A stretch of 7,071 nucleotides of DNA, taken from contig LKUE01000073.1 of NCBI GenBank assembly GCA_001412365.1, positions 1 through 7,071 of the forward strand, read 5' to 3'. The translations under genes were made by a program, and so were the position numbers. This stretch comes from Desulfuromonas sp. SDB. Lineage in GTDB: Bacteria > SDB-A. The notes under the pieces were generated by a model. That model saw only the letters and a list, made by a program, of their open reading frames with translations. It was not told the DNA's origin and ran no database searches. Shown piece after piece: positions 55 through 7,071 of the stretch. Each line of letters begins with the position of its first letter. The first letter of the stretch is position 1.

Positions 55-669
55 TTATTCAGTGTCTTCGCCGCCAGTTTCTTCGGCAGGAGTATCTTCT
101 TCCATAGGAGTATCTTCACCAGTGGGCTCTTCTTCTGCAGGAGCCATAGTGTCAACTGGTTGTTCTTCCATGGGAACTTCTTCTTCTATAACTTCTTCGT
201 CTCCACTGGGAATTTCTTTCACTACTTCAAAGCTTACACTGAGAATTTCTTTACCTTCAAAATCAGAATCAAATAATCTGATATCATACATTCCAAGTTC
301 TTCGGGGGCGTAAAAACTAACTTCTGCTTCTTTTTCATCGCCAATAAGGTGGAAATCCAAGTCGAATTCGTCACATACTTCTTCGTCTCCATGTTCAACT
401 TCTGAAGGAATTAAACCAACCCAGGCATCATCTTCAAATTCGACGGGGACTTTATAGGTAACTAAAATCTCATCGCCGGGAAGATAATATTCTGCATCTA
501 AAGTTAATTCAGGTTCAATTACTTCCGGGACTTCTACTGTATCTGGTTCAACCACATCGGCGGTGTCAGTATCCTGAGGCTCAGGTTCCTGACTGCAGCT
601 GAAAAACAAAACGGTAAAACTCAGTGCTACCAGGACAACTAAAATACCAAGCATATTGCTTTTTTGCAT
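55..669 (-). CDS. Acidic lipoprotein with one Ig-like beta-sandwich domain, function unknown
   Basis: A 204-residue exported protein. Residues 1-24 form a signal peptide: a single Lys, a long hydrophobic core (about 7-23), then FFS before Cys25, which fits a slightly degenerate lipobox for signal peptidase II and lipid anchoring. Ser rather than Asp follows the Cys, so inner-membrane retention is not indicated if the cell is didermal. Residues 26-53 are a Glu/Asp/Pro/Thr/Val linker. Residues 54-150 look like one beta-sandwich domain, with the pattern YYLPGDEI, AWVGLIPS (82-89), YDIRLFDSD (128-136) and a closing SVSFEVV strand. Residues 152-204 are a low-complexity tail of Glu, Pro, Thr and Asp with a six-residue repeat. 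The ATG is well supported: AAGGAGG at 676-682 lies 6 nt upstream. The gene is monocistronic here and divergent from the PLP enzyme. No catalytic motif is visible. A surface, ion-binding or stalk-like role is inference from the acidic flanks only. Confidence 0.85.
   Translation of the reverse strand: MQKSNMLGILVVLVALSFTVLFFSCSQEPEPQDTDTADVVEPDTVEVPEVIEPELTLDAEYYLPGDEILVTYKVPVEFEDDAWVGLIPSEVEHGDEEVCDEFDLDFHLIGDEKEAEVSFYAPEELGMYDIRLFDSDFEGKEILSVSFEVVKEIPSGDEEVIEEEVPMEEQPVDTMAPAEEEPTGEDTPMEEDTPAEETGGEDTE
88..117. repeat. Imperfect tandem repeat, 18-bp period, inside the lipoprotein tail
   Basis: The 12-mer AGGAGTATCTTC occurs at 88-99 and again at 106-117, exactly 18 bp apart. On the coding (-) strand this is two copies of a six-residue unit, EDTPME followed by EDTPAE. 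Expansion of the acidic tail by short in-frame duplication is the simplest explanation. Confidence 0.7.
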
Positions 670-948: not shown

Positions 949-2409
949 ATGATAAATTTAAAGATATCTAACCGCAAAATACTTAAACGTAATATTGAAA
1001 GATGCCGGCAAAAGAAAATTATAATACCCACCTTTCAGCAAATGCGTTACCCCCAAACCGTACCGGATAAAATCACCTCAGGATTAAAAAAAGTTGGTTT
1101 ATGGGAAATAAATCCACTTAATTTATTCAGAATAACCTGGAAAAATGAGCCGGTGGAAAAAGCCGGTCTTTACCAGCAAGTTAATTATGTTGAAATACCG
1201 CCCAGCTTATCCGGCGTGGATTGTACCATTATCGGGTTGGTGGGAAAATGGTTCCCTACCGGTTCTCACAAAGTAGGAGCTACATTTGGATGCATTGTAC
1301 CTTATCTGATAACCGGTCAATTCGACGCCACCAGCAACAAAGCGGTGTGGCCATCCACCGGCAACTACTGCCGGGGAGGAGCTTACGTAGCTTCTTTGCT
1401 GGGATGTAAATCAGTAGCTATACTTCCTGAAGAGATGTCTCAGGAAAGATTTGACTGGTTGGCTAAGGTTGCCGGAGAAGTTATTGCTACCCCGGGATGT
1501 GAGAGCAATGTAAAAGAAATTTTTGACAAGTGTCACCAGCTCCGGGAAAACCGTTCTGAAGTTGTAATATTTAATCAGTTCGATCAAATCGGAAATTATT
1601 TATGGCATTACTCTGTAACCGGTCCGGCAATTCATGAAGTCCTTTCCATTCCCACCTATGCTGATAAGAACATTGCGGGTATACTGTTAACCTCAGGATC
1701 TTCAGGAACCCTAGGGTCAGCCGACTATCTCAAACAGCAGTATCCAGCCATGAAAATTGCAGTAGGAGAAGCCTGGCAATGTCCGACTTTGCTGCTTAAC
1801 GGATATGGAGGTCATCGAATTGAGGGTATAGGGGACAAGCATGTTCCCTGGATTCACAATGTAAAAAACACAGATTTAGTGGTAGACGTAGACGATGAAC
1901 ACACTATGCGCTTGTTGAGGTTGTTCAACGAGCCGGAGGGAAAAGAGCTTTTAATCAAACAAGGAGTACCCCCTGCTTTTGTGAAGAGTTTAAACCTTTT
2001 AGGAATATCTTCCATTGCCAACTTAATTGGCTGCATAAAACTGGCAAAATATTATGAATTAAACCGTCAAGATTTATTGGTAACTGTTTTCACCGATTCT
2101 TTTGAACTTTATCCTTCCAGAATAAAACAGCTGAAAAAATTTCGTGGAGCTTATGACCAAGAACAGGCAATTAAAGACCGGGAAATTTTATTTCAGCTAT
2201 CCCTTGACAGAATTGAAGAATTAGATTATTACAGCAGGAAAAAAATCCATAATTTAAAATATTACACTTGGGTTGAACAGCAAAACAAGCAGGTAGAAGA
2301 ATTGGATCAACAATGGTATAACCGGGATTATTGGAAAACAATCCAGTCTCAAACAGAGAAGATAGATGAATTAATAAACGAATTTAATACCAAGGTTGGA
2401 ATATTATGA
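949..2409 (+). CDS. Fold-type II PLP-dependent enzyme (threonine/cysteine synthase superfamily), substrate unknown
   Basis: A 486-residue cytoplasmic protein with the landmarks of the tryptophan-synthase-beta PLP fold. The motif TGSHKVGA contains the likely Schiff-base Lys108. STGN at 136-139 is the cofactor-binding Asn loop, and GSSGT at 250-254 is the glycine-rich phosphate-binding turn. Family members usually eliminate, replace or synthesise at the beta or gamma carbon of amino acids (threonine synthase, cysteine or cysteate synthase, diaminopropionate ammonia-lyase). The substrate cannot be chosen from these motifs. It is longer than a typical ~300-400-residue member, with a charged helical C-terminal extension (about 400-486) that includes HNLKYYTWVEQQ from His434. 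The ATG at 949 has no clear Shine-Dalgarno. The next in-frame ATG (codon 32) has none either and would remove N-terminal sequence, so 949 is kept. The stop overlaps the start of the deaminase by 4 bp, so the two are probably translationally coupled, linking it to purine or nitrogen catabolism. Confidence 0.85.
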   Translation: MINLKISNRKILKRNIERCRQKKIIIPTFQQMRYPQTVPDKITSGLKKVGLWEINPLNLFRITWKNEPVEKAGLYQQVNYVEIPPSLSGVDCTIIGLVGKWFPTGSHKVGATFGCIVPYLITGQFDATSNKAVWPSTGNYCRGGAYVASLLGCKSVAILPEEMSQERFDWLAKVAGEVIATPGCESNVKEIFDKCHQLRENRSEVVIFNQFDQIGNYLWHYSVTGPAIHEVLSIPTYADKNIAGILLTSGSSGTLGSADYLKQQYPAMKIAVGEAWQCPTLLLNGYGGHRIEGIGDKHVPWIHNVKNTDLVVDVDDEHTMRLLRLFNEPEGKELLIKQGVPPAFVKSLNLLGISSIANLIGCIKLAKYYELNRQDLLVTVFTDSFELYPSRIKQLKKFRGAYDQEQAIKDREILFQLSLDRIEELDYYSRKKIHNLKYYTWVEQQNKQVEELDQQWYNRDYWKTIQSQTEKIDELINEFNTKVGIL

Positions 2410-3788
2410 TTTTATTAAAAAATTGCAAATACATTGCCACCTTTAATGACCGAGAAGATGAATTAGAACATTATGACATTTTAATAAAAGATAATAAAAT
2501 TGAAGAAATCTTCAAAAATATAAAGTTAACTACTTGTGAAGAGAAGAATACTCAAATTGTAGATTGCTCTCATCATCTGGTCGTTCCTGGTTTAATCAAC
2601 ACCCATCATCATTTTTATCAAATTCTCACCCGCAACCTGCCCTCGGTACAAAATGTTAAATTATTCCAGTGGTTAAAAAGATTATATCCCATCTGGTCAC
2701 ATCTTAATGAAAAACAGATCTTTTACTCAACCATTGCTGCTTGTGCAGAGCTGGTAAAGACCGGTTGTACAACTACTTCTGATCATATGTACCTTTACCC
2801 CAAAGATTTTACCGGAGATATAACCGCGGTTCAGTTCGAGGGAGCCAGGCAGGTGGGAATCAGATTTTCACCTTGCCGGGGAGCAATGACTTTCGGACAA
2901 GCCGAAGGAGGATTGCCTCCCGAGAATGTAGTTCAGTCTCCTCAACAGGTTATCAAAGATATGCAAAGGGTGGTGGAGATGTTCCACGATTCCGATCCCT
3001 TTTCCATGAGCCGAATAATCCTTGCCCCCTGTAGTCCCTTTTCGGTGGAAGAAAGCATAATGATCGAATCCGCCAAACTAGCCCGGCAGCACAAAATAGT
3101 ACTACATACCCATCTGGGAGAGACGGAAGATGAAAATCAGTTCTGCCTGGAAAAGTACGGACAACGTCCTTTGCAAATTATGGAAAAATGGAATTGGTTG
3201 GGTGAAGATGTTTACTATGCCCATGGCATCTGGTTTAACCAGGATGAGTTGGATTTACTCAGCACCACCTCAACTGGTATTGCCCACTGTCCCAGTTCCA
3301 ATATGAGACTTGGCTCTGGAGTGGCAAAAGTAAAAGAGATGTTATCCCGGAAAATAAGAGTGGGACTGGGAGTTGACGGATCCTCTTCCAATGACAGTTC
3401 AGACATGCTGGGAGAAGCAAGATTGGCATTATTACTGCAGAGAGTAATATTGGGAGCAGATGCAATTACCGCCAGGGAAGTGTTGTCTATGGCTACCCGG
3501 GGGGGAGCCAGTCTTCTGGGATATTCTAAAATTGGCTCTATTCAGCCGGGATTTGCAGCTGATTTGGCTGTTTTCAACCTTCATCAACTCCAGCATGCCG
3601 GGGCATTGTCCGATCCTCTGGCTGCTTTATTATTTACCGGTTTCTGTCATCAAACCGAGCATACTATTATCAATGGAAATTTCGTGGTCAAGCATGGCAT
3701 GCTAACTAACTTAGATGAGCAACAGCTGGTGGGCAAAGTAAATCATTTAGCTCATCAATTGCTGCAATCTGCTGTTCAATCACAGTAA
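2406..3788 (+). CDS. Amidohydrolase, probable 8-oxoguanine deaminase (EC 3.5.4.32)
   Basis: A 460-residue cytoplasmic metal-dependent deaminase of the amidohydrolase superfamily (ATZ/TRZ, guanine-deaminase-like branch). Visible active-site residues in order: His67 and His69 in NTHHHF (HxH on strand 1), the segment RGAMTFGQAEGGLPP (158-172), His236 and Glu239 in HTHLGETE, His273 in AHG, and Asp324 in GVDGSSSND. These are the expected ligands and proton-transfer residues for a single divalent metal. The NTHHHFYQ and RGAM...GGLPP segments and the length of about 450 resemble the 8-oxoguanine deaminase group, which makes urate and ammonia from 8-oxoguanine. Related enzymes annotated as guanine deaminase, SsnA or hydroxyatrazine ethylaminohydrolase are the alternatives, so substrate is less certain than family. 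The ATG at 2406 is embedded in the ATGA overlap with the preceding gene, with only a weak GGA upstream. Its final 13 bp overlap the 3' end of umuC on the other strand. Confidence 0.8.
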   Translation: MILLKNCKYIATFNDREDELEHYDILIKDNKIEEIFKNIKLTTCEEKNTQIVDCSHHLVVPGLINTHHHFYQILTRNLPSVQNVKLFQWLKRLYPIWSHLNEKQIFYSTIAACAELVKTGCTTTSDHMYLYPKDFTGDITAVQFEGARQVGIRFSPCRGAMTFGQAEGGLPPENVVQSPQQVIKDMQRVVEMFHDSDPFSMSRIILAPCSPFSVEESIMIESAKLARQHKIVLHTHLGETEDENQFCLEKYGQRPLQIMEKWNWLGEDVYYAHGIWFNQDELDLLSTTSTGIAHCPSSNMRLGSGVAKVKEMLSRKIRVGLGVDGSSSNDSSDMLGEARLALLLQRVILGADAITAREVLSMATRGGASLLGYSKIGSIQPGFAADLAVFNLHQLQHAGALSDPLAALLFTGFCHQTEHTIINGNFVVKHGMLTNLDEQQLVGKVNHLAHQLLQSAVQSQ

Positions 3789-5062
3789 ACTACTGGAATC
3801 TGATCCCAGGCAGTGGTAAATTTCGGCGAAAGTTTTTTCTGGGACATGGACCAGGAAGGCTTTTTACCGGGAAGGGAAAAGCCAACTGTATTTCTACCCC
3901 ACCGGTCATTTATTTGATCTAAAATTTTCATAAACCGGTGGTCATTTAGAACATCATCAGGATGATAAAAAAAACCAGGTTGAACTTCTTTTGACGGAAT
4001 TATCCCGGTAAAGGTTACTCCCACTTTTTTGTAGCGGTATCCACTCTTGTATATTTTACCCAGGTTTTCTCTAGCCAGGGAGATGAGATAGGGAGTGTAA
4101 GAAGTGGGCTTGGACAACTTAATATCAATCCAATTTGCATATTGTGGTTCATCTTGGTTGAAACGGTTAGTGGTTATGAAGATGTGCATGGAGAGGGGAA
4201 TGGAATCCTGCTTACGCAATTTCTCGGCAGCCCGGCTTATATAGGTTGCCAATGCTTGCTGGAGAAGTTCAAATTTTTCCACCGGCTGACCGAAAGATCG
4301 GGAACAGGTGATCCCTTTTTTATCAGGGGGTATCATTTCAAGCTCCACACAGTTTTTTCCTCTTAGTTCTAGAAGTGTTTTTTGTCCGGTGACAGTCATT
4401 CTTTCCCGCACCCAATTCTCATCTGTATTTTTAAACATTAACCCATCCACGATACCCTTCTTCCTTAACATCAGGGAATACTTCGGTCCAATCCCCCAAA
4501 TATCCTCAATTTCCACTTGTTTTAAAAAAGAATCCTGATCAGGATGTCCGGTTAAATTAAATACTCCTTTTAAATCAACATCTCTTTTAGCAAACCGGTT
4601 TGCAACTTTAGCCAAGGTTTTAGTTTCAGCAATGCCGATAGATACCGGTATCCCTGTCCATTTTGCCACGGTTTCTCTTATCTCTTCTCCGTATTCGCGG
4701 TAGTCTTTTTGTTTAAATTTCTCCAGACAGAGAAAGGCTTCATCAATAGAATAAATTTCCACCTGGGGAGAGAATTTCCTTAAAACATCCATTACCCTGG
4801 AAGACATATCTGCATATAGAGAGTAGTTTGAAGAAAACACCTGCACATCAAATTTTTTAATTAACTGTTCACATTTAAAAATAGGCGTTCCCATACCTAT
4901 GCCCAGCTGCTTAGCCTGTTCTGAACGGGAAACCACACAGCCGTCGTTATTGGATAACACCACTACCGGTTTATCTCTTATCCGGGGATTAAACACCCGC
5001 TCACAGGAGACGTAAAAATTATTACAATCTACCAGGGCAAAAACTTGGTCTTGGTTAAACAT
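3776..5062 (-). CDS. umuC: Error-prone Y-family DNA polymerase, UmuC (Pol V catalytic subunit)
   Basis: A 428-residue translesion polymerase, close to the 422 of E. coli UmuC. Catalytic acidic residues are Asp12 in VDCNNFYVSCE and Asp107-Glu108 in YSIDEAF. Tyr17 sits at the steric-gate position. SIGIAETKTLAKVAN (141-155) and a helix-hairpin-helix segment, IWGIGPKYS (about 188-196), follow in the expected order. QPGFF at 361-365 lies where E. coli has its beta-clamp-binding QLNLF, and the C-terminal LSPKFTT segment matches the usual UmuC tail. I chose the ATG at 5062. An upstream in-frame ATG at 5116 would add 18 unrelated residues and run into umuD, while 5062 places the first catalytic Asp near its normal position and leaves a 17-bp gap after the umuD stop. 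It would act with cleaved UmuD at stalled forks. Only a poor Shine-Dalgarno (TTTGGA) precedes it, so coupling to umuD is likely. Confidence 0.95.
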   Translation of the reverse strand: MFNQDQVFALVDCNNFYVSCERVFNPRIRDKPVVVLSNNDGCVVSRSEQAKQLGIGMGTPIFKCEQLIKKFDVQVFSSNYSLYADMSSRVMDVLRKFSPQVEIYSIDEAFLCLEKFKQKDYREYGEEIRETVAKWTGIPVSIGIAETKTLAKVANRFAKRDVDLKGVFNLTGHPDQDSFLKQVEIEDIWGIGPKYSLMLRKKGIVDGLMFKNTDENWVRERMTVTGQKTLLELRGKNCVELEMIPPDKKGITCSRSFGQPVEKFELLQQALATYISRAAEKLRKQDSIPLSMHIFITTNRFNQDEPQYANWIDIKLSKPTSYTPYLISLARENLGKIYKSGYRYKKVGVTFTGIIPSKEVQPGFFYHPDDVLNDHRFMKILDQINDRWGRNTVGFSLPGKKPSWSMSQKKLSPKFTTAWDQIPVVYCD

Positions 5063-5079
5063 CGTCCAAATGATTTTAA

Positions 5080-5511
5080 TTAAAGGGGATGGATAACATG
5101 GGTAACCACTCCCCAAATTTCACAATTTTCATGATCTTTAACTTGTATAGGTTTAAACTGGGGGTTTTCAGGGATTAAAAATATTTTATTTTTCTTAACC
5201 TTTATCCTTTTAACTGTAAACTCACCTTCTATGACCGCAATGACAACTTTCCCCGATCCAGGATTAATCGCCCTGTCCACAATTAAAATATCACCAGAAT
5301 GTATTCCCGCATCAATCATGGAATCACCGGAGACCCTTACAAAAAATGTTGCGGAGGGATGCTTAATTAAATATTCATTTAAATCAAGTTTTTTATCTAT
5401 ATAATCATCTGCGGGAGAGGGGAATCCTGCGGATATTTTAGCAGTAACCAGGGGAAATTTTCGGGATTGTTTTTTTTCAAAACCAATGATTTCAGTAATT
5501 TTAATTTCCAT
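5080..5511 (-). CDS. umuD: UmuD, self-cleaving Pol V accessory subunit (S24/LexA-type peptidase)
   Basis: A 143-residue protein (E. coli UmuD has 139). The likely self-cleavage site is Ala28-Gly29 in KISAGFPSP. The catalytic Ser64 lies in SGDSMIDAGI and Lys101 in FTVKRIK, 37 residues apart, the same spacing as Ser60/Lys97 in E. coli. No N-terminal helix-turn-helix is present, which separates it from LexA. In the known system, RecA filaments provoke removal of the N-terminal arm, and dimeric UmuD' then activates UmuC. It is first in the umuD-umuC transcript, with umuC 17 bp downstream. The ATG at 5511 has no visible Shine-Dalgarno: the upstream stretch is A/T-rich and the predicted leader is only about 20 nt. 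No shorter start would preserve the cleavage region. The promoter just upstream has dyad elements that could be an SOS operator. Confidence 0.93.
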   Translation of the reverse strand: MEIKITEIIGFEKKQSRKFPLVTAKISAGFPSPADDYIDKKLDLNEYLIKHPSATFFVRVSGDSMIDAGIHSGDILIVDRAINPGSGKVVIAVIEGEFTVKRIKVKKNKIFLIPENPQFKPIQVKDHENCEIWGVVTHVIHPL

Positions 5512-5538: not shown

Positions 5539-5567
5539 AGTATAAACCAACACACTGTTCTTGACAA
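5539..5567 (-). promoter_or_regulatory. Sigma70-type promoter of umuDC
   Basis: On the - strand, TTGTCA (5562-5567, five of six consensus) is followed by a 17-bp spacer and TATACT (5539-5544, five of six). Predicted transcription start is near 5532, about 20 nt before the umuD ATG. This is the best promoter match I found in the window, and it lies where a umuDC promoter is expected. Confidence 0.7.
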
Positions 5568-5568
5568 C
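5549..5568. promoter_or_regulatory. Candidate repressor operator in the umuDC promoter
   Basis: Two dyads share a GTT: AACA-CAC-TGTT at 5549-5559, and GTTC-TTGA-CAAC at 5557-5568, the latter one mismatch from a perfect GTTC-N4-GAAC inverted repeat. They cover the promoter spacer and the -35, positions where LexA would block transcription. Neither matches the E. coli CTGT-N8-ACAG box nor the Gram-positive GAAC-N4-GTTC box exactly. LexA binding is therefore inference from location and from umuDC being an SOS operon elsewhere. Confidence 0.3.
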
Positions 5569-5589
5569 TTTTTGAATTAGCTCTACTTT
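5561..5589 (+). promoter_or_regulatory. Possible rightward promoter of the molybdenum hydroxylase gene
   Basis: A perfect TTGACA (5561-5566) is followed after 17 bp by TACTTT (5584-5589), a poor -10 with three of six matches. Transcription would start near 5596, leaving only about 14 nt before the proposed start codon, just enough to include the Shine-Dalgarno. Five of the six -35 bases are shared with the opposing umuDC -35, so the perfect hexamer may merely reflect that element. Confidence 0.3.
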
Positions 5590-5597
5590 AAAATAAA

Positions 5598-5602
5598 AAG
5601 GA
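5598..5602 (+). promoter_or_regulatory. Ribosome binding site pointing to an ATA start codon
   Basis: AAGGA at 5598-5602, in an A-rich context, stands 7 nt before the ATA at 5610, an ideal distance. An ATG at 5602-5604 overlaps this site but is out of frame with the downstream gene and is followed immediately by TAA. The Shine-Dalgarno therefore serves 5610 and decides the start of the hydroxylase gene. Confidence 0.55.
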
Positions 5603-5609
5603 TGTAAAA

Positions 5610-7071
5610 ATATCAAAACATTCCAGACTGGATATTGTTGAAAAATGTCTAGGTTTAACTAAATATACTGATGATCTTCCCCTGGAAGATTTTCTTTGGG
5701 GAATGCAGATTGGTTCTCCGGTCGCTTCAGGAGTATTTAATGGATATTCCCCCAATTCCCATGTTGATTGGTCTGAGTTTACTATTTGTGATTATAAAGA
5801 TATTCCCGGACAGAATATTGTAACTTCAGCTATTTCCGATATGCCGGCATTAGTTGAAAATGAAATTCGTTATCCTGGTCAGCCCCTGCTTTTAGTTGCT
5901 CATTCAGATAGAGATCGCCTGCAAGAAGCAGCATCAAATATTTTTTTAGATATTACTCCCGGCGCATCAGTTTTAGATTTAGAGCAAGCAATTATCACCT
6001 CAGAACCAGTTTTCACTAAAACTTTTTCCAGAGGAAATACAGTTAATGCTTTTGCTCAATCAGAGGAGGTATTCCAGGATGAATATTTTACTCAAGCAGT
6101 TGATCAAGCTTATCTGGAACCCCAGATCATTATCGCCTGTTCAAATCCAAATAAATCAATTTCCATAAAAGGATCAATGCAATGCCCCTTTTATGTGCAA
6201 AAAGCAATTTGTACCGCATTTAACCTTCCCCCGGAAAAAGTTGAAGTCATCCAAATAACCACTGGCGGAGCATTTGGAGGGAAAGAAGAATATCCTTCGT
6301 TGATTGCAGTTTATGCGGCATTATTATCCTGGAAATCGGGTAAAACCGTAAAAATCAGATATGACCGCCAAACAGACATGTCCATAACCACCAAAAGACA
6401 TCCCTCCAAAGTCATGGTTAAAATCGGAGTGGATGGTAATAAAAAAATTCAAAGCTTTCATGCGGAAATGTCTCTGGATGCGGGTGCATATCTGACTTTA
6501 AGTCCGGTTGTTTTAGCCCGGGGCATATTGCATCTGGGGGCATATTCATGTGAAAATGTAAAAATTACCGGCAACATATACATCACCAATCATCCTCCCC
6601 GGGGAGCATTTAGAGGTTTTGGCGCACCCCAGGCATTTTTTGCAGTAGAAAATCATATTGATAAGATCTGTTCAAAATTAAATATCGATCCCCTTGAATT
6701 CAGGAAAAAAAATTGTTTTAAAAGAAATTCGATGATGCCCTCCGGTCAGAAATTGGAGTCGTGCTGTTTAACTGAAATACTTGAAAAAATATTGGTCAAG
6801 TCAGACTACTTATCTGCTAAAAAGAAAAATGAAAGGTTTAATAAAAATAACTCCCTACAAAAAAGGGGAATTGGTATTTCCCTGTTTTATCATGGATGTG
6901 GCTTTACCGGAAGCGGAGAAACTGACTTAAAATCAATAGCTGGATTAAAATTGGACCATCAGGGTAATGTTTACATCTTGTCAGCAGCCGCAGAAATAGG
7001 GCAGGGAGCGCACACGGTCTTACCTCAAATTGTCTCCGAGGAGCTTAACCTTCCCCTGGAAAAAATATTTT
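5610..7071 (+). CDS. Xanthine-dehydrogenase-type molybdenum hydroxylase, molybdopterin-binding subunit (partial, right edge)
   Basis: The frame is open from 5592 to the window end; from 5610 it gives 487 codons of a protein usually about 750 residues long. KYTDDL (18-23) opens the aldehyde-oxidase/xanthine-dehydrogenase hammerhead domain. YLEPQ (168-172), GGAFGGKE (219-226), RGAFRGFGAPQ (Arg335 in FRGF) and EIGQGAHT (from Glu462) follow in family order. Glu226 and Arg335 align with the purine-binding Glu802 and Arg880 of bovine xanthine oxidase. The AYRCSFR loop of CO dehydrogenase is absent. This supports hydroxylation of a purine such as hypoxanthine or xanthine. The catalytic Glu near the C-terminus lies beyond the window, and iron-sulfur and FAD subunits would be expected as partners. 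No ATG, GTG or TTG occurs in frame between the upstream TAA (5589) and an ATG at 5703, which would delete KYTDDL. The start is set at ATA 5610 from its Shine-Dalgarno and the resulting ISKHSRLDIVEKCLG N-terminus, of normal length. Family is confident; start and exact substrate are less so. Confidence 0.88.
   Translation, partial: MSKHSRLDIVEKCLGLTKYTDDLPLEDFLWGMQIGSPVASGVFNGYSPNSHVDWSEFTICDYKDIPGQNIVTSAISDMPALVENEIRYPGQPLLLVAHSDRDRLQEAASNIFLDITPGASVLDLEQAIITSEPVFTKTFSRGNTVNAFAQSEEVFQDEYFTQAVDQAYLEPQIIIACSNPNKSISIKGSMQCPFYVQKAICTAFNLPPEKVEVIQITTGGAFGGKEEYPSLIAVYAALLSWKSGKTVKIRYDRQTDMSITTKRHPSKVMVKIGVDGNKKIQSFHAEMSLDAGAYLTLSPVVLARGILHLGAYSCENVKITGNIYITNHPPRGAFRGFGAPQAFFAVENHIDKICSKLNIDPLEFRKKNCFKRNSMMPSGQKLESCCLTEILEKILVKSDYLSAKKKNERFNKNNSLQKRGIGISLFYHGCGFTGSGETDLKSIAGLKLDHQGNVYILSAAAEIGQGAHTVLPQIVSEELNLPLEKIF

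Follow-up and report, generated by a model that had tools for sequence, protein, structure and literature searches.

Where does translation of a gene begin when its reading frame holds no ATG, GTG or TTG at the expected place? The question was raised by the analysed window, a stretch of 7,071 nucleotides that is the entire contig C73 of a draft genome (433 contigs, 3.14 Mb, 98.7% complete) from an uncultured bacterium, in which a hydroxylase gene follows an in-frame TAA at 5589 and reaches its first canonical start codon only at 5703. An earlier note had described this arrangement, together with AAGGA 7 nt ahead of an ATA at 5610 and, with that ATA counted as residue 1, KYTDDL at residues 18-23, and all of these observations were confirmed in the sequence (Table 1). 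The codons that follow the stop are AAT AAA AAG GAT GTA AAA ATA(5610) TCA AAA CAT TCC AGA CTG; AAGGA occupies 5598-5602, and the gap of exactly 7 nt is a usable spacing for what is a moderate Shine-Dalgarno sequence (SD) of 5 exact bases. The SD can pair with a downstream ACAUUC, and a hairpin around it was not significant. An ATGTAA lies 2 nt 5' of the ATA. The promoter-like pair upstream is offered as a suggestion, since its second hexamer is weak (3/6), and a consensus promoter scan (which needs 4/6) does not report it. An Rfam search of the leader for a regulatory RNA gave zero matches.

Table 1. Features of the hydroxylase start region and of the other genes in the same genome with apparent AUN starts
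Feature	Position	Strand	Remark
Promoter-like pair TTGACA (5561-5566), 17 nt, TACTTT (5584-5589)	window 5561-5589	+	read from sequence
In-frame stop TAA, 5' of hydroxylase frame	window 5589-5591	+	read from sequence
SD-like AAGGATGT	window 5598-5605	+	7/8 match to AAGGAGGT
Out-of-frame ATG, then TAA at once (ATGTAA)	window 5602-5607	+	read from sequence
ATA, proposed start codon of hydroxylase molybdenum subunit	window 5610-5612	+	
Molybdenum subunit gene (xanthine dehydrogenase family), 5' two thirds	window 5610-7071	+	rest on contig C312 (L263, minus strand to 1471)
ATG, earliest canonical start (ATG/GTG/TTG) in hydroxylase frame	window 5703-5705	+	3' of conserved N-terminal motif
infC	L125 (G000:C13) 4584-5180	+	TAAGGAGG-GAATA-ATT, as in E. 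coli
rsmH (16S rRNA C1402 N4-methylase)	L154 (G000:C42) 5705-4827	-	ATA 5705-5703
Nicotinamidase-like gene	L137 (G000:C25) 15643-16188	+	ATC, 6 nt past GGAGG

That the frame is a real molybdenum hydroxylase gene, as had been claimed, was borne out by Pfam matches to MoCoBD_1 (3e-71) and MoCoBD_2 (2e-17), both above cut-off, with the hammerhead domain PF01315 slightly under its own (25.1 bits, cut-off 31.3). Among the NCBIfam equivalog cut-offs compared (xdhB, pucD, Se-dependent XDH and others), the best match was TIGR02965, at 258.8 bits against a cut-off of 849.5 with just two thirds of the protein in the window, where the gene runs off the contig end. With a relative's C-terminal part as query, the missing 3' third was found at the end of contig C312. 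The ends of C73 (7060-7071) and C312 have only TATTTT in common; reading frame and protein alignment join across them into ...VPNSGPTVASRT, as in relatives, with MoCoBD_2 covered from 2 to 92 on C73 and from 96 to 283 on C312. Overlapping FeS and FAD subunit genes (Fer2/Fer2_2, FAD_binding_5), both listed with GTG starts, lie downstream on C312. Because the frame joins across the two contigs and these genes come next, gene and operon are intact, and by its sequence the gene encodes the molybdenum subunit of a xanthine dehydrogenase-family hydroxylase with three subunits. Contamination of the bin was ruled out, as GC (0.392) and tetranucleotides of the window match those of larger contigs.

Elsewhere in the window, a YgeX-like PLP enzyme gene (949-2409, plus strand) overlaps, through ATGA, a gene (2406-3788, plus strand) that scores above the 8-oxoguanine deaminase cut-off of NCBIfam (588 vs 532 bits). 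With the hydroxylase gene, these look like a purine-breakdown cluster. It resembles the xdhA/ssnA/ygeX purine cluster of E. coli (NC_000913, 3.00-3.02 Mb) in its molybdenum, FAD and FeS subunits and in its genes for a YgeX-like PLP enzyme and an SsnA-like amidohydrolase, and differs from it in subunit order (Mo-FeS-FAD here), in the umuD-umuC pair inside the cluster and in the start codon, E. coli xdhA being annotated as an ordinary gene, unlike the apparent ATA-start gene here. The umuD-umuC pair (error-prone polymerase; 3776-5511) is on the minus strand, with the purine genes on one side and the hydroxylase gene on the other, so that umuD and the hydroxylase gene are divergently transcribed from a shared gap of 98 bp. 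Positions 55-669 (minus strand) encode a predicted lipoprotein whose C-terminal tail is very acidic and rich in Glu, Thr and Pro, and a Pfam search with it gave zero matches.

The expected N-terminus was compared across 86 aligned relatives, the closest of which are 41-43% identical and come from unrelated phyla; the organism's own phylum comprises four genomes, and the gene is absent from the other three. Relatives conserve hGKxxxR-x-D-A-xx-KVxGxAxYxDDL, the last part of which falls here at residues 6-23, and translation must therefore begin 5' of 5703. Since the ATG at 5703 lies past this motif, automatic annotation would drop 31 residues. In most relatives the start precedes the ATA-aligned position by about 2-12 codons; a start further downstream, by 3 codons, is seen in L016 and possibly L044 alone. 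The 'normal-length N-terminus' that had been claimed for an ATA start holds in part: on this alignment the length would be acceptable, but on the short side, with some 2-12 residues fewer than in most relatives. ATA at the start position was shared by 0 of the 86, and a canonical start codon is available in nearly all distant homologues.

The arrangement has counterparts in the same genome. We read 593 kb of the 3.14 Mb, and a 487-kb sample provided the AUN cases, drawn from 240 coding ORFs on contigs of at least 4 kb and selected for the lack of a canonical codon near the N-terminus, yet an SD ahead of ATA, ATT or ATC. Three ORFs besides the hydroxylase gene stood out, namely infC (AUU), rsmH (AUA) and a nicotinamidase gene (AUC), each with an SD and an AUN codon at the family N-terminus and no canonical start there; at none of these three would a single indel bring an out-of-frame ATG, GTG or TTG into use as the start. 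In rsmH (AGGAGG-AAGAGAG-ATA TTA ACA..HIPVL), AGGAGG stands 7 nt ahead of an ATA that sits within the end of the upstream gene and corresponds to roughly position 2 in the TIGR00006 profile. The nicotinamidase gene begins GGAGG-ACAACT-ATC ACT GAA CAA GCA TTA TTA GTT GTA GAT, and its product, (I)TEQALLVVDLQNDF, presumably aligns, starting at residue 1, with the N-terminus of E. coli PncA. The IF3 encoded by this genome's infC has a 14-residue insertion (TDRTKSNSPLQNKR) after FLEVG, in the C-terminal, codon-discriminating domain, which is absent from the solved IF3s aligned with it; going by match lengths, the IF3s of two sister genomes (G001 and G002) apparently also carry it. Neither an initiator tRNA nor a 16S 3' end turned up in the contigs sampled.

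As a control, the search was run on 343 kb of E. coli K-12, where it recovered infC and a single false match, whose coding score was negative. A few candidates came from mixed draft contigs of other organisms; one of them was plausible, a gene for a MocA-like nucleotidyltransferase (L091; JAFGQG010000189.1, 674-1277, plus strand) with an apparent ATT start (AGGTG, 6 nt, ATT AAA GTT ACA GCC ATA); it adjoins the hydroxylase homologue of another bacterium. Sister genome G003 provided one case, a lipoprotein-like ORF (L241, G003:C19, minus strand, reverse-complement offsets 8345-9755) in which TAAGGA precedes an ATAATA at the beginning of the signal peptide and the first canonical codon comes 55 codons past the stop. 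With infC excluded, AUN starts were not significantly enriched in this genome (3/240 vs 5/932 elsewhere, p = 0.21). When ATN was compared with other codons following an SD within the genome, p was 0.012, a value to which we attach no weight because infC was counted twice and weak cases were included.

Of the three readings that the earlier note had offered (AUA initiation, a changed or misread ATG, and a missing base), initiation at AUA is now the best supported, through the intact operon, the apparent AUN-start genes of the same genome and the scant coding damage described below. We consider that AUA 5610 is probably the real start of the hydroxylase, used with its SD at reduced efficiency: the SD is well spaced, and a canonical start is absent ahead of the conserved motif.

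The true codon at 5610 might instead be ATG in most of the population, with ATA arising from faulty assembly or consensus calling, or from a recent expression-lowering mutation of the sampled strain. ATA is one base away from ATG at just the right distance from the SD, the assembly is fragmented, with a contig break inside the hydroxylase gene itself, and none of the aligned relatives has ATA there. Coding damage in this assembly is nevertheless very low, as 136 non-overlapping homologous matches covering 46,450 aligned codons contained 0 frameshifts and, in a match of 29% identity, no more than one internal stop, which makes assembly error unlikely as a common cause. Any single AUN case, taken alone, could be such an error; the pattern recurs, however, in rsmH and the nicotinamidase gene, as independent errors rarely would (from a substitution-rate bound, the probability of at least 3 of 240 start codons being hit is about 0.015 or less). 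On balance we find an original ATG rather unlikely. There was no sign of an altered genetic code, in-frame stops in aligned genes being antisense shadow ORFs or gene ends, with one exception.

If one base had dropped out somewhere from 5605 to about 5609, whether through the assembly or by recent loss in the organism, ATG 5602 would be the start of a protein beginning M-x-K-I-S-K-H-S-R. This start, 3 codons upstream of the ATA position, would give a length common in relatives and would align Ile near the conserved V/I of hGKxxxR, so the comparison of N-termini lends it some support. Against it, AAGG directly abuts ATG 5602, as had been pointed out earlier, and a usable SD is gone, although about half of the genes here have no clear SD; the indel would also have to fall within a window of a few bases, when none was seen in the aligned codons. 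We judge a missing base to be distinctly improbable. That the start has been lost and the hydroxylase gene is a young pseudogene would fit the missing canonical start, and is very improbable, being ruled out as the main reading: C73 and C312 together hold the complete gene, with 487 open codons in the window and 239 on C312, and it is followed by intact FeS and FAD genes, and thus is not decaying. The least credible proposals are another in-frame start, for which CTG 5628 and ATT 5634 are present but lack an SD and lie past the conserved Arg, and a start-stop at ATG 5602-TAA with re-initiation at the nearby ATA, for which we know of no bacterial parallel and whose ATGTAA could easily occur by chance in an AT-rich leader.

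If translation does begin at AUA 5610, the SD AAGGA(UGU) would place the 30S subunit, and the initiator fMet-tRNA, whose anticodon is CAU, would pair with the A and U of AUA and tolerate A in the third position, giving a protein that would begin (f)Met-SKHSRLD. In E. coli, infC starts at AUU and IF3 autoregulates its own synthesis. The hydroxylase gene would share with E. coli infC an AUN start with a third-base mismatch, an arrangement also seen in this genome's own infC. As xdhA encodes a metabolic enzyme, unlike infC, it would be expected to depend on IF3 but not to feed back on itself. In vitro, weak third-base pairs are excluded by IF3 (PMC10158994), and in E. coli non-canonical initiation rises 3-15 fold with low-fidelity infC alleles (PMC5472188). 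Another parallel is Streptomyces sigR, whose GTC start is repressed by IF3, as demonstrated with mutants (PMC5472188): it too is a gene other than infC with a rare start codon lowering translation under IF3 control, a control that for the hydroxylase, with AUA rather than GTC, is suggested by analogy.

Natural AUA starts have been described in Staphylococcus aureus for infC, ccpN and citZ, and an AUU start for cvfC1 (PMC13009471). These AUN starts were shown by ribosome profiling and reporters and have extended SDs; the reporters gave about 10% of AUG expression, and up to 30% for ccpN, and the non-canonical starts of ccpN and cvfC1 are conserved across species (PMC13009471). The hydroxylase gene is alike in that the conserved N-terminus lacks a canonical start and has an SD followed by AUN instead, and differs in its shorter SD and in that its use of AUA is inferred from sequence. 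By analogy with the S. aureus AUA starts and with the action of IF3, AUA would be used in the cell, and the hydroxylase would be made at a reduced level, perhaps between a tenth and a third of the AUG level, with an output that may respond to the level of IF3.

AUA starts in bacteria are already known; what is newer is that infC and rsmH, which encode two start-fidelity factors, both appear to have AUN starts here. Absence of RsmH raises non-AUG initiation in E. coli, according to a statement in PMC7379855 that cites Kimura and Suzuki 2010. From these sequences, a feedback through both IF3 and RsmH is possible, in which low fidelity would raise both IF3 (infC, AUU), with its 14-residue insertion, and RsmH (AUA), and the hydroxylase and other metabolic genes would follow the same control. 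Taken as a whole, the idea that this lineage tolerates AUN starts as a lasting trait, used by several of its genes, with IF3 and RsmH in feedback through them and metabolic genes under the same control, is a tentative one that we hold to be doubtful. If the AUA start of rsmH is true, a second fidelity factor would be self-regulating. Gene finders as a rule accept ATG, GTG and TTG only, and genes with AUN starts are therefore truncated, here by the 31 residues ahead of ATG 5703, or missed. If AUN starts are regular in uncultured lineages, annotated N-termini would be wrong and a layer of IF3-dependent control would have gone unseen.
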